Shown: positions 1,377 to 45,554 of the stretch, piece by piece
Layout of the letters: each line of letters opens with the position of its first letter
Position numbering within the stretch: the first letter of the stretch is position 1
DNA from: Halovivax cerinus
Lineage (GTDB): Archaea; Halobacteriota; Halobacteria; Halobacteriales; Natrialbaceae
Length of the DNA: 64,000 bases
Assembly (NCBI RefSeq): GCF_024498195.1
Contig: NZ_CP101824.1
Coordinates: 2,604,001-2,668,000 of the forward strand
Direction of reading: 5' to 3'
The notes under the pieces: model-generated
What the model saw: only the letters and a program-made list of their open reading frames with translations
Databases searched by the model: none
Told to the model about the DNA's origin: nothing
Made by a program: the position numbers and the translations under genes

Positions 1377-2630
1377 ATGTCTGATCCATCCGCTGGAGAC
1401 GTACTCGCCGGCCGGTACGAACTCGAATCGGAAATCGGCCGCGGCGGCTTCGGAGTCGTCTGGCGCGCCCGCGATACGTCGACCGATTCCCCGGTCGCGC
1501 TCAAGTATCCGAACTACGAGGGAAGCGCCCCTGCGGAGATGGTTGATAAGTACTTCGACCGCGAGCGGGAGGTCCTCTCCGATATCCGGGCGGCCGGCGG
1601 CCACCCCCACATCATGGCGTACCACGGTCTCGAGGACGGATTCGGCACGTCCGTCCTCGTCGTCGAACTGATCGAGGGTGACGAACTCGGAGCGGTCGTC
1701 AGGAACGACGATCCGATCACGGATCCCGACGAGGTTCGCGAGATCGGAATCGGAGTCTGCGACGCCCTCTCGTTCCTGCACGACCACGACATCATCTACC
1801 GCGACCTCAAACCCGACAACATCATGCTCGACGGCTCGTACGAGCCGAAGCTCATCGACTTCACGACGGCGAAGGGGTTCGTCGACGAGGTCGGTGGTGC
1901 CGAGTTCACGAGCGGGACCCACTCCCACCCGGGGGCGAGCTCCGAGGGGGATTCGACGGTTCCCGGGGAGTTCAAACCACCCGAACTGAATCGTGGTTCG
2001 GACCAGCGCCAGGGCCCCTGGAGCGACGTCTACTCGATCGGCAAGATCCTCTGCTTTCTCCAGGTGGGGTGGGTCCCCGACGACGACGGCGTGGCGCCGA
2101 TCGACTTCGGTGTCGAAAGCGCGGACTACCTGGACGAGATCGTCCGGACGGCGACCCAGCACGACCAGACGGACCGGTATCCGAACGCGTCGGTTCTGAA
2201 ACGAGCGCTGGAGACGCGCGACTCGACGATGCCGGCCCAGGCGTCGCTCACGTGGCTGGGGCGGGACACGCGCTGGCGGATCAGTCCCGGTGATACGATC
2301 GGCCGAAAGACGCGGGACGGCCCGCGTCCGTCTATCATGTTCGACGACGACACACACCGGGCGCTCTCGGCCGTCCACTGCCGGTTCGATACCGACGCAG
2401 ACGGGAACTGGACAGTGATCGACACGAGCCTCAACGGCACGTACATCAGCAAGCACGACGAGCGATCCTGGGATCGCCTCCTCTCCGAGACCGGTCAGCA
2501 ACGCCAGCGGGAGAAGGGCGAATCGGTGCCGTCAGACCTGGCGGCAGAACGGACGCTGTCTGACGGTGACGTCGTCGCCCTCGTCAGTCCGAGCTATCCC
2601 GAACGATTCTACGTCCAATTCAACACCTAA
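1377..2630 (+). CDS. Ser/Thr protein kinase with C-terminal FHA domain
   Basis: 417 aa, eukaryote-type (Hanks) kinase. The glycine loop GRGGFGVV lies at residues 21-28, the ATP-anchoring lysine is in ALK at 43, the catalytic loop is YRDLKPDN at 141-148 (D143), and the magnesium aspartate is D161 in a DFT variant of DFG. A likely activation segment rich in Ser/Thr/Gly follows, and PPEL is present near 200. From about residue 285 to 410 there is an FHA domain (TIGR, then S-x-x-H, then LNGTYIS), a phosphothreonine-binding fold. There is no transmembrane segment, so it is a cytosolic kinase, unlike many bacterial PknB types. It probably phosphorylates partners in this operon, with the PP2C gene downstream as its opposing enzyme. 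Confidence 0.92.
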   Translation: MSDPSAGDVLAGRYELESEIGRGGFGVVWRARDTSTDSPVALKYPNYEGSAPAEMVDKYFDREREVLSDIRAAGGHPHIMAYHGLEDGFGTSVLVVELIEGDELGAVVRNDDPITDPDEVREIGIGVCDALSFLHDHDIIYRDLKPDNIMLDGSYEPKLIDFTTAKGFVDEVGGAEFTSGTHSHPGASSEGDSTVPGEFKPPELNRGSDQRQGPWSDVYSIGKILCFLQVGWVPDDDGVAPIDFGVESADYLDEIVRTATQHDQTDRYPNASVLKRALETRDSTMPAQASLTWLGRDTRWRISPGDTIGRKTRDGPRPSIMFDDDTHRALSAVHCRFDTDADGNWTVIDTSLNGTYISKHDERSWDRLLSETGQQRQREKGESVPSDLAAERTLSDGDVVALVSPSYPERFYVQFNT

Positions 2631-40496: not shown

Positions 40497-40522
40497 ATGA
40501 GTCTCGCAGGGTGGAACGGACG

Positions 40523-40526
<4 letters not shown>
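40497..40526 (+). CDS. Nine-codon upstream ORF overlapping the pccB start
   Basis: ATG 40497 opens a 9-codon frame (MSLAGWNGR) whose TGA overlaps the ATG of pccB at 40523 (ATGA). It lies about 26-36 bases after the T-rich promoter-like run, so it would be the first codon of a leaderless mRNA. It may couple or limit translation of pccB; whether it is translated is unknown. Confidence 0.35.
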
Positions 40527-42491
<1,965 letters not shown>

Positions 42492-42804
42492 AACCACGTA
42501 ACGCCGGACGATGACACGAGAGTCGTACAGTGACGGACGATTCGTAGAGTGACGGGCGTACTCACGCCCGTAGCGGGCGCTGGTGGTGTGAGGAAATTCT
42601 TTGAACCGGCCGTATTCTCTGCGATCTCCGAAGCGGGATCCCCGCATCTATCCTCTCGACTTTGGGTACCCGCAAGGATCGCCGGGCCTGTGAGAGCGGC
42701 CGCTGCCCGAACCCGTCGGATATGTGAGGGATATACCAGGATATATATTAAGAATGATAAAAATAAAAACAATTATTATAGATAGGATTAGTGTTCCGAG
42801 CGCA
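42492..42804. other. AT-rich region upstream of the halocin-like gene
   Basis: 313 bases. From 42720 to 42800 the DNA is strikingly AT-rich (atatatattaag and aaaaataaaaac runs), unlike all flanking genes. No gene is recognised in it. Confidence 0.55.
42772..42780 (+). promoter_or_regulatory. TATA box of the halocin-like gene
   Basis: attattata, ending 25 bases before the ATG at 42805, inside the AT-rich tract. Confidence 0.5.
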
Positions 42805-43533
42805 ATGTCGGATGATAACGGGCGACGTTCGCACTTTCGGCGGAGAGACCTTCTGAAACGAGCCGGCGCCAGCTCCCTCGGGATCGGGGCTATCGTGACC
42901 GGGACAGGCGCTGCGCGAGAGGATCGCCCTCGCGACATCGCCGAGGGTCCGGGTCCGAAAATCGACACCGATCCCGAACGGTTCCGATCGGAGCCGTCGT
43001 ACCGACGCCAGGTCGTAGCGAAGACGACGGCGGGACTTCGCCGACAACTGGTGACACTGGAGTACCTGGATACCGCCGACGTGTCCTTCGAATTGCAGAC
43101 GCGGTTACCGGACGACCGAACGATCGACGCGAGTTTGCCGGTCGACGGATACGACGTCACCGAGTCGAAAGCCGATGGCGTCCTGATCAGTCTCTCCTAT
43201 ACCCGCGCCGCCAGGCCGATGACGATCTTCGTCCGTCCATCGTACGGACGGGCCCACGCCGTCGTCGAAACCGACGATGGTGACGTCATCGTCACGGCGG
43301 ATGGTGAAGTGTCTCCCGCCGACTGCGAGGAGGATACGTACTGTGAGTTCTATTCGTGTGATCGATGTTTCTGTGACCCGTACGGCTACCCCGCCTGTTT
43401 CGAGGAGGGGAAGGAGACGACCCAGCGGTGCTGCCAGTCCGAGAGCGGTTTCAACTGCTGGATCGTCAGTCAGGGAGCGTGTGGGAGTTGCTCCACTGCG
43501 GGATTCGATTGTTCCTGTTGCCCCTGGAGCTGA
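42805..43533 (+). CDS. Tat-exported precursor with cysteine-rich C-terminus (halocin-like)
   Basis: 242 aa from ATG 42805. Twin-arginine signal (RRRDLLKRAG, residues 12-21, then a hydrophobic core to about 35). A middle soluble domain (about 50-170) is beta-rich (LEYLDTADVSFELQTRLP, MTIFVRPSYG). The last 69 residues (174-242) hold 14 cysteines, with C-C pairs and CFCD, CCQ and CSCCPWS patterns, ending in tryptophan. This layout (Tat signal, spacer or immunity domain, small Cys-rich peptide at the end) is that of halocin C8-type microhalocin precursors, but I can only compare the layout, not the sequence. It may be processed to an antimicrobial or signalling peptide. It interrupts the pcc gene group. 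Confidence 0.65.
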   Translation: MSDDNGRRSHFRRRDLLKRAGASSLGIGAIVTGTGAAREDRPRDIAEGPGPKIDTDPERFRSEPSYRRQVVAKTTAGLRRQLVTLEYLDTADVSFELQTRLPDDRTIDASLPVDGYDVTESKADGVLISLSYTRAARPMTIFVRPSYGRAHAVVETDDGDVIVTADGEVSPADCEEDTYCEFYSCDRCFCDPYGYPACFEEGKETTQRCCQSESGFNCWIVSQGACGSCSTAGFDCSCCPWS

Positions 43534-43712
43534 GTGCGTTTTCGGACGGGATCGATCGACTTCGGGGCGGCTTCAGTCACGGCCCGGGATCGATACTCAG
43601 TGGGGGAAGTGACGGGCTAGACGGCGTTCCGTAGCGGTCCGGGGTTGGTTCGACCCACCGCGACTCCGTTGCGAAAAAGTAAGGTACGCCCCGAGCAACC
43701 GTCCGAGCAGGA

Positions 43713-45554
43713 ATGTTCCGGAAAGTCCTCGTCGCGAATCGCGGCGAGATCGCCGTCAGGGTCATGCGGGCCTGCGAGGAACTGGACGTCGAGACAGTCG
43801 CGGTCTACTCAGAGGCGGACAAGAACGGTGGGCACGTTCGCTACGCCGACGAGGCCTACAACGTGGGCCCCGCCCGGGCGGCGGAGTCCTATCTGGACCA
43901 CGAGGGCGTCATCGAGGCCGCGCACAAGGCCGACGCGGACGCGATCCATCCCGGCTACGGGTTCCTCGCCGAGAACGCCGAGTTCGCCGCGAAAGTCGAG
44001 GGCGAGGAGGGGATCACCTGGGTCGGTCCATCTAGCGACGCGATGGAGAGCCTGGGGGAGAAGACCAAGGCCCGGACGATCATGAGCGACGCGGACGTGC
44101 CGATCGTCCCGGGGACGACCGATCCGGTCGAGTCGGCCGAGGAAGTCGAAGCGTTCGGCGAGGAATACGGCTACCCCGTCGCGATCAAGGCCGAAGGCGG
44201 CGGTGGCGGCCGCGGGATGAAGGTCGTCGAATCGGCCGACGAGGCCGCGGATCAACTCGAGAGCGCCAAACGCGAGGGCGAGGCCTACTTCGACAACGAC
44301 TCGGTCTACCTCGAACGCTACCTCGAGAACCCGCGCCACATCGAGGTGCAGATCGTCGCCGACCAGCACGGCAACGTCCGTCACCTCGGCGAGCGCGACT
44401 GTTCGCTCCAGCGCCGTCACCAGAAAGTCGTCGAGGAGGGCCCGTCCCCGGCGCTGACCGACGAATTGCGCGAACAGATCGGCGAGGCCGCCCGTCGCGG
44501 CGTCGCCGCCGCGGACTACACGAACGCCGGCACGGTGGAGTTCCTGGTCGAGGAGGATCCCGACCGCGACGGCCTGCTGGGCCCCGACGCGAACTTCTAC
44601 TTCCTCGAAGTCAACACGCGGATCCAGGTCGAACACTGCGTCACCGAGGAGATTACGGGTATCGACATACTCAAGTGGCAACTTCGGATCGCTGCCGGGG
44701 AAGAACTCGACTTCGCCCAGGACGACGTCGAATTCGACGGCCACGCGATCGAGTTCCGCATCAACGCCGAGAACGCGGCGAACGACTTCCAACCCGCCTC
44801 CGGTGGGACGCTCACCACCTACGACCCACCGGGTGGCGTCGGCGTCCGCGTCGACGACGCGATGCGTCAGGGCGACGAACTCGTCACCGACTACGACTCG
44901 ATGATCGCGAAACTCATCGTCTGGGGTGCCGATCGCGAGGAGTGTCTCGCCCGCTCGTCGCGCGCGCTCGCGGAGTACGACATCGAGGGTGTCACGACGA
45001 TCGTCCCCTTCCACCGGCTGATGTGCACCGACGAGCGCTTCGTCGAGGGCACGCACACGACGAAGTATCTCGACGAAGAAGCGGATCGCAGCCGATTCGA
45101 GGACGCCCAGGAGCGCTGGGGCCCGGACGAACCCGCGGCGGAACCCGAGGACGTCGACGTCGTCGAGCGCGAGTTCACCGTCGAAGTCAACGGAAAGCGG
45201 TTCGAGGTCGACCTCGAGGAGCGCGGTGCCGCACCGCTGGCCAACGGCGGTAGCGGCGGTTCCGCGGGGGCGCAGCGACCGTCACAGGGATCGAGTGCCA
45301 GCGCAGACACCGGGAGCGAGACGGCGGACGTCTCTGGCGACGGCGAGTCGGTCACGGCCGAGATGCAAGGGACCGTCCTCTCCGTCGAGGTCGGAGAAGG
45401 CGACGAGGTCGCCGCAGGGGACGTCGTCGTCGTGCTCGAAGCGATGAAGATGGAGAACGACATCGTCGCCTCCATCGGCGGCACCGTGAGCCAGGTGCCG
45501 ATCGCCGAGGGCGACAGCGTCGACATGGGCGACACGCTGGTCGTGCTGGAGTGA
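43713..45554 (+). CDS. pccA: Biotin carboxylase-biotin carrier subunit of propionyl/acetyl-CoA carboxylase
   Basis: 613 aa. Biotin carboxylase domain: [20 protein letters not shown] start, GGGGRGMK glycine loop near residue 165, [14 protein letters not shown] and [13 protein letters not shown] (ATP/bicarbonate site). A Ser/Gly/Asp linker (about 510-545) leads to the carrier domain with the biotin lysine in EAMKMEND near 581. It carboxylates its own biotin with ATP; PccB transfers the CO2 to acyl-CoA. Confidence 0.95.

Follow-up and report, generated by a model that had tools for sequence, protein, structure and literature searches.

What does a secreted haloarchaeal protein do when every one of its cysteines lies in a short C-terminal tail? 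The question is raised by a single gene, 42805-43533 on the forward strand, in a stretch of 64,000 nucleotides from Halovivax cerinus (assembly GCF_024498195.1, contig NZ_CP101824.1, positions 2,604,001 to 2,668,000), referred to here as the window. An initial annotation, made from the letters alone, had read this open reading frame (ORF) as a precursor exported by the twin-arginine translocation (Tat) pathway, with a middle domain of about 130 residues and a 69-residue C-terminus containing 14 cysteines, and had proposed a possible new microhalocin. Our analysis confirms that layout and places the gene, on sequence comparison, in a previously unnamed, patchily distributed and fast-diversifying family of secreted haloarchaeal proteins, uncurated and assembled in this work. 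The best-supported role for the tails, with a probability of roughly 0.55, is that of disulfide-rich secreted peptides for microhalocin-like antagonism. To our knowledge, genes have been assigned to very few archaeal antimicrobial peptides.

The preprotein and its family

The 242-residue product opens with the twin-arginine motif FRRRDLLKRAG, continues with about 130 cysteine-free residues and carries all 14 cysteines in its tail, C174-S242, in the spacing C-x5-C-x4-C-x2-C-x1-C-x7-C-x10-CC-x7-C-x7-C-x2-C-x6-C-x1-CC. The motifs CFCD, CCQ and SCC noted initially are all present, the last as CSCC, and the protein ends in CCPWS with tryptophan penultimate. The tail is hydrophilic and acidic (net charge -8; grand average of hydropathy, GRAVY, -0.37), is predicted to be fully disulfide-bonded, and would form a peptide of about 7 kDa if cleaved near residue 172. 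The start at 42805 is consistent with a TATA-like element that lies about 25-32 nt before it, within an A+T-rich stretch (64%, in a locus of about 35%). Across the family, the 100 bp upstream contain 62% A+T, compared with 36% in the loci as a whole.

A search of 100 relatives recovered one distant homologue (L002; loci are given by our own handles) with the same three-part layout, from another family of the order (27% identity over 230 amino acids, E 8e-11), and a profile built from the two sequences and run over 394 genomes of the class recovered about 30 more members. Leave-one-out scoring of the window middle domain against 30 relatives gave E 8.7e-11, which, together with the shared layout of the distant homologue, shows that the ORF is a real gene. 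Profile A2 covers only the middle domain, which keeps the Tat signal and the cysteines from driving its matches. It matched in 47 of the 394 genomes and in 24 of 86 genera (E 8.9e-24 for the window protein), a few of the weakest matches being partial. The Tat signal and the middle domain are common to the family, and the two arginines are invariant in 50 aligned members. The window protein is divergent, with 15-26% identity to other members, and two paralogues lie elsewhere in its genome. Multiple copies are common, with up to six matches in one genome; G209 has three copies in tandem (L148), and G407 has a divergent pair (L040). Such a patchy, often multi-copy distribution is not that of the broadly conserved single-copy gene that the initial annotation had named as evidence against its proposal. 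Part of the family may already be mentioned in the survey of archaeal antimicrobial peptides by Makarova et al. (mBio, 2019), so an earlier description is possible.

Pfam and NCBIfam scans of the window protein and 50 relatives returned only weak Tat matches, and searches with single sequences against viral and genome contigs, plasmids and phages returned nothing. A weak match to DUF7776, a ubiquitous regulator family, was rejected as unrelated (hhalign probability 0.7%). In the structural model of the window protein the middle domain is confident (a helix and a five-strand sheet, with a predicted local distance difference test score, pLDDT, of about 70-92) and the tail is poor. The model of a relative, L052, is better (mean 82.7), with three long strands in a tail whose pLDDT is mostly 75-95. 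A fold search of the PDB with these two models gave no match with E below 0.18.

The closest known layout is that of the halocin C8 precursor, ProC8, which is likewise Tat-exported, of similar size and C-terminally cysteine-rich with an even number of cysteines, and one locus of this type (L178) shares a downstream membrane protein, described below, with four loci of the family. This raises the reading that the window protein is a diverged member of the halocin C8 family. Sequence contradicts it: the halocin_C8_dom model TIGR04449 (cut-off 24 bits), exceeded in 42 of the 394 genomes, matched neither the window protein nor anything else in its genome, and the two middle domains are unrelated (hhalign probability 0.3%; no significant hmmsearch match among 19 HalC8-type precursors). 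Halocin C8 has 10 cysteines rather than 14, its tail shows no match to that of the window protein, and HalC8-type tails are conserved and hydrophobic (median GRAVY +0.95, n=19) whereas those of the family are hypervariable and the window tail is hydrophilic. We regard membership as highly implausible; the window protein has the layout of a microhalocin precursor while belonging to a separate, more variable family, as the initial annotation had suspected from the cysteine spacing. Of its microhalocin proposal, the precursor architecture stood, whereas the hydrophilic, acidic tail departs from the halocins described so far, which are reported to be hydrophobic (PMC11509114), and the term is used here as a proposal. 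The HalC8 precursor reads TPA|DIDITGC before its first cysteine, and its processing has been described (PMC11509114). A VTPAD/VSPAD motif in this position, shared with HalC8, was considered as a processing signal; it is suggestive but occurs in only about one third of members, and was not relied on. Linkers of the form [DG]-x-V-[ST]-[PT], comparable to that of the window, occur in some relatives.

Cysteine parity and tail variability

Although profile A2 contains no tail, nearly every protein that it found ends in a cysteine-rich tail, 31-85 residues long. Tail counts cover 72 members including the window protein; L107, with no tail in the frame read, and L132, which is truncated, were left out. 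The number of tail cysteines is even in 71 of 72 members (4, 6, 8, 10, 12, 14, 16, 20 or 22), with the tail of L128 set to start after a boundary cysteine (otherwise 70 of 72). The single odd tail has three cysteines and its close relatives have four. When similar tails were collapsed, all 54 resulting clusters were even (p 6e-17), and in the parity control, genes with at least four cysteines, the count was even in 69 of 130. Cysteines are almost absent ahead of the tail (10 in 12,558 residues). Among the tails, 37 different spacing patterns (frameworks) were found. Even parity and this range of frameworks match the prediction of full intramolecular disulfide pairing and so point to it strongly, short of proof, since metal sites could also be even. 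Extracellular metal-binding tails resembling metallothionein would account for the high cysteine content, which reaches 22 in 57 residues (L039). Disulfides better explain why parity is strict in all 54 clusters, at counts that include 6, 10, 14 and 22, and Tat export into an oxidising medium and the wholly different spacing between members also speak against metal binding, which we consider very improbable.

In two pairs of tandem paralogues the tail has been replaced behind a conserved front: the middle domains are 59% identical in the L120 pair and 57% in the L136 pair, and the non-cysteine tail positions 14% and 7%, respectively. Other pairs, likely orthologues, diverge evenly. By analogy, the family has the layout of a conotoxin superfamily, a constant front joined to a hypervariable tail, predicted to be disulfide-rich. 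Conotoxin precursors likewise combine a conserved signal and pro-region with a hypervariable mature peptide, even cysteine numbers and tandem paralogues with replaced tails. There is no homology, however, and the present family is archaeal, uses Tat rather than Sec export, and has as its conserved part a folded domain of about 120 residues.

A ComQ/PalQ-like enzyme and the C-terminal tryptophan

The loci of seven relatives, including both other copies in the window's genome, contain an isoprenyl-synthase-like protein (protein A). It has no Pfam match, but prenyl diphosphate synthases of known structure were recovered with its profile (E 5e-7). All 11 homologues of protein A retain the first Asp-rich motif, EYYDIxDDxxD, whereas only the second Asp survives of the second motif (QFLLDxxQ). 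This is the reported signature of ComQ, where the prenyl donor binds to the first motif and, of the Asp residues in the pseudo-second motif, just the second remains (PMC5331326, PMC10853753). PalQ, a relative of ComQ, prenylates a tryptophan that must be exactly C-terminal (PMC10853753), and ComQ accepted tryptophan at positions 2-4 in vitro (PMC5331326). With ComQ-ComX of Bacillus and PalQ-PalX of Paenibacillus, the seven loci thus share a DDxxD enzyme, a second motif reduced to its second Asp, and a precursor with tryptophan at its end. They differ in being archaeal, in having Tat-exported and predicted disulfide-rich substrates, and in the lack of a receptor kinase beside the loci; nor is the window gene enzyme-adjacent. 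A census of ComQXPA systems found them in Firmicutes only (PMC4008528).

Tryptophan is the last or second-last residue in all nine tails beside protein A (GW, NW, GWW, GWL) and in 5 of 63 other tails (p 2e-8); by chance, 19 of 564 neighbouring ORFs end in this way. The homologues of protein A that had not been used in forming the prenylation idea were then examined. Two of them (L222 and L223) stand beside short, mutually similar ORFs ending in LAPW and LGVW. A third, in L221 (638-1378 (-) with 1501-2361 (-)), neighbours a Tat protein whose C-terminal region is hydrophobic, Gly/Ala-rich and ends in NNSWI; this protein looks like another new halocin-like precursor. As the nine linked tails all carry the terminal tryptophan and three further enzyme loci have precursors with a C-terminal tryptophan, the enzyme-linked tails are predicted to be prenylated, probably on this residue. 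Of the other two homologues in this set, L224 is a fragment and L227, on a Haloarcula metagenome contig, lies at the contig end. Across 324 genomes, a strong copy of protein A was found only beside this family, with a profile built from those copies. The short ORFs, L222:1252-1452 (+) ending in RDEEYAKLAPW and L223:2374-2490 (-) ending in RDEEYARLGVW, come from two genomes of one genus and resemble ComX/PalX-type precursors.

The window holds no copy of protein A; the two in its genome each stand beside a paralogue. Four of the five non-adjacent tryptophan-ended tails, including the CCPWS end of the window protein, occur in genomes with protein A elsewhere. Such ends were found in 4 of 7 non-adjacent tails in genomes with the enzyme and in 1 of 50 in others (p 4e-4). 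The window tryptophan, second from the end, lies within the four C-terminal residues taken here as the limit for ComQ/PalQ-type substrates. The window product might thus be prenylated in trans, though this is speculative.

The enzyme also brings in signalling, in which the tails would be secreted, disulfide-rich and sometimes prenylated pheromones whose variability gives strain-specific recognition, as with ComX in Bacillus. The ComQ/PalQ-like partner with its first motif kept and second lost, the terminal tryptophan in all linked tails, and the hypervariability typical of ComX (PMC4008528) are in its favour. No histidine kinase or other receptor gene was found next to the enzyme-linked loci, however, ComX pheromones measure 6-10 residues against 31-85 for the tails, and most members have no enzyme. 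We judge signalling to be improbable.

Genomic context and proposed function

The window gene lies in a segment of about 1.18 kb that holds no other gene and is absent from three congeners, in which the two flanking carboxylase genes enclose nothing but the small gene, with gaps of 154, 43 and 80 bp. It is thus an accessory gene, inserted without a dedicated neighbour into an operon of the propionyl-CoA-carboxylase type (Table 1). The upstream gene we take to be a pccB-like carboxyltransferase. A 10-bp direct repeat, AGTGACGGGC, stands near both segment ends, at 42548-42557 and 43608-43617; it could be a trace of the insertion or a chance occurrence.

Table 1 Features of the window locus and of lipoprotein copies beside relatives
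Feature	Position	Strand	Basis
Segment absent from three congeners	42485..43660	.	Comparison with three genomes of the genus
Flanking carboxyltransferase subunit gene (presumably pccB-like)	40511..42073	+	Sequence and general knowledge
Flanking small gene between carboxylase genes (pccX-like), kept in congeners	42087..42491	+	
Flanking biotin carboxylase gene (accC/pccA-like)	43713..45554	+	
A+T-rich promoter region, 64% A+T, TATA-like TTATTA at -32	42705..42804	+	Composition, motif
Preproprotein gene, 242 amino acids	42805..43533	+	ORF and homologues
Twin-arginine signal region, residues 1-37 (RRRDLLKRAG...), without lipobox Cys	42805..42915	+	Sequence; RR invariant in aligned members
Conserved middle (pro-) domain, helix then five-strand sheet	42964..43308	+	Profile A2; models
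Linker ADGEVSPAD ahead of first tail Cys, candidate processing region	43297..43323	+	Similar linkers in some relatives
Hypervariable 69-residue tail, 14 Cys	43324..43530	+	Sequence
Penultimate Trp codon, possible (speculative) prenylation site in trans	43525..43527	+	End-Trp statistics
Lipoprotein C copies	L123:3078-4358, L117:5362-6666, L119:2838-4034, L140:5526-6713, L126:5406-6560		

Beside relatives, several other genes recur. Five precursors are accompanied by a lipoprotein (protein C), which in the tightest cases starts 4-13 bp past the precursor stop. Its HExxH motif is intact in three of five copies and degenerate (HELGG, HELSD) in two, and it is a candidate processing protease or immunity protein. 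Such protease-like lipoproteins, along with hydrophilic, acidic tails that are beta-rich in the L052 model, would also fit a non-weapon role as secreted binding domains, for instance in inhibiting extracellular proteases (halolysins) or as modules for surface recognition that stay uncleaved on the conserved domain. Tail replacement in tandem paralogues and the 54 tail clusters suit an arms race better, and the shared, predicted C-terminal tryptophan modification would be left unexplained. Binding domains are rated unlikely.

Four family loci contain a CxxC-bearing membrane protein (protein B), which also stands directly downstream of the L178 precursor (46.9 bits to halocin_C8_dom) and so may loosely tie the family to bona fide halocin-type loci. 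A role for protein B as a dedicated partner was rejected: it is near-universal in haloarchaea and its top matches are partly members of its own profile. Because of that ubiquity, and because adjacency is scattered on the protein B tree so that several gains are needed, the linkage is weak evidence. Cysteine-rich Tat proteins that match neither the family nor the halocin C8 model were also seen beside protein B (L188:2500-3357 (+), L192:385-1338 (-), L212:1260-2165 (+)), and probably represent further microhalocin-like classes. Other neighbours are a beta-propeller protein (D) and ATP-binding cassette ATPases (E). Members L053, L124 and L041 lie about 0.5-3 kb from tatC in three genomes, and L035, L040 and L145 lie 50-140 bp from secD.

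Antagonism, as favoured here, is suggested by the ProC8-like architecture, the conserved middle domain joined to 54 tail clusters, cysteine parity, tail replacement, the patchy multi-copy spread, the insertion, the neighbours and the link between enzyme and tryptophan. The preprotein would be exported by Tat, with the middle domain serving as a pro-region for chaperoning, secretion and/or self-protection; in ProC8, HalI protects against halocin C8 (PMC11509114). Outside the cell seven disulfides would form in the window tail, and a protease, extracellular or in the membrane, would release it by cleavage near the SPAD linker. The freed peptide would target neighbouring cells, its likeliest role being that of a microhalocin-like antagonist. 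Where the enzyme is linked, as in part of the family, it would prenylate the C-terminal tryptophan before export, giving an otherwise hydrophilic peptide a membrane anchor, and the two such enzymes in the window's genome could act on the PWS end of the window product. HFX_0892 / HapP of Haloferax mediterranei also involves a secreted haloarchaeal precursor activated by proteolysis; its antagonism is synergistic and its active part is a helical N-terminus, with no cysteines discussed (PMC12893001), rather than a C-terminal tail.

Several observations weigh against antagonism. Unlike HalC8-type tails, those of the family are acidic and hydrophilic (median GRAVY -0.42). The window gene, in its 1.2-kb insert, has no adjacent immunity, protease or transporter gene; a producer of a toxic product would therefore rely for protection on the precursor's middle domain or on some other source. 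Protein B belongs to a large general family, with relatives in 304 of 334 genomes. A subgroup with 3-4 tail cysteines (L110, L111, L114, L115) is found in a conserved neighbourhood of carotenoid genes and may serve another purpose or have left the hypervariable mode. Hypervariability and prenylation would, in addition, fit signalling.

The fuller proposal, to which we give about even odds, is that Tat-exported disulfide-rich peptides form a haloarchaeal arsenal comparable to conotoxins, and that a ComQ/PalQ-type enzyme prenylates some of them on the C-terminal tryptophan. Such a modification would be new both to archaea and to disulfide-rich proteins, and enzymes of this group also stand beside a ComX-sized peptide ending in tryptophan and a hydrophobic halocin-like precursor. 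If this is true, tryptophan prenylation would reach beyond Firmicutes and cyanobacteria. If the tails act between cells, haloarchaea would have at their disposal a large number of hypervariable disulfide-rich peptides that withstand saturated salt, and the constant parts would make these easy to mine.
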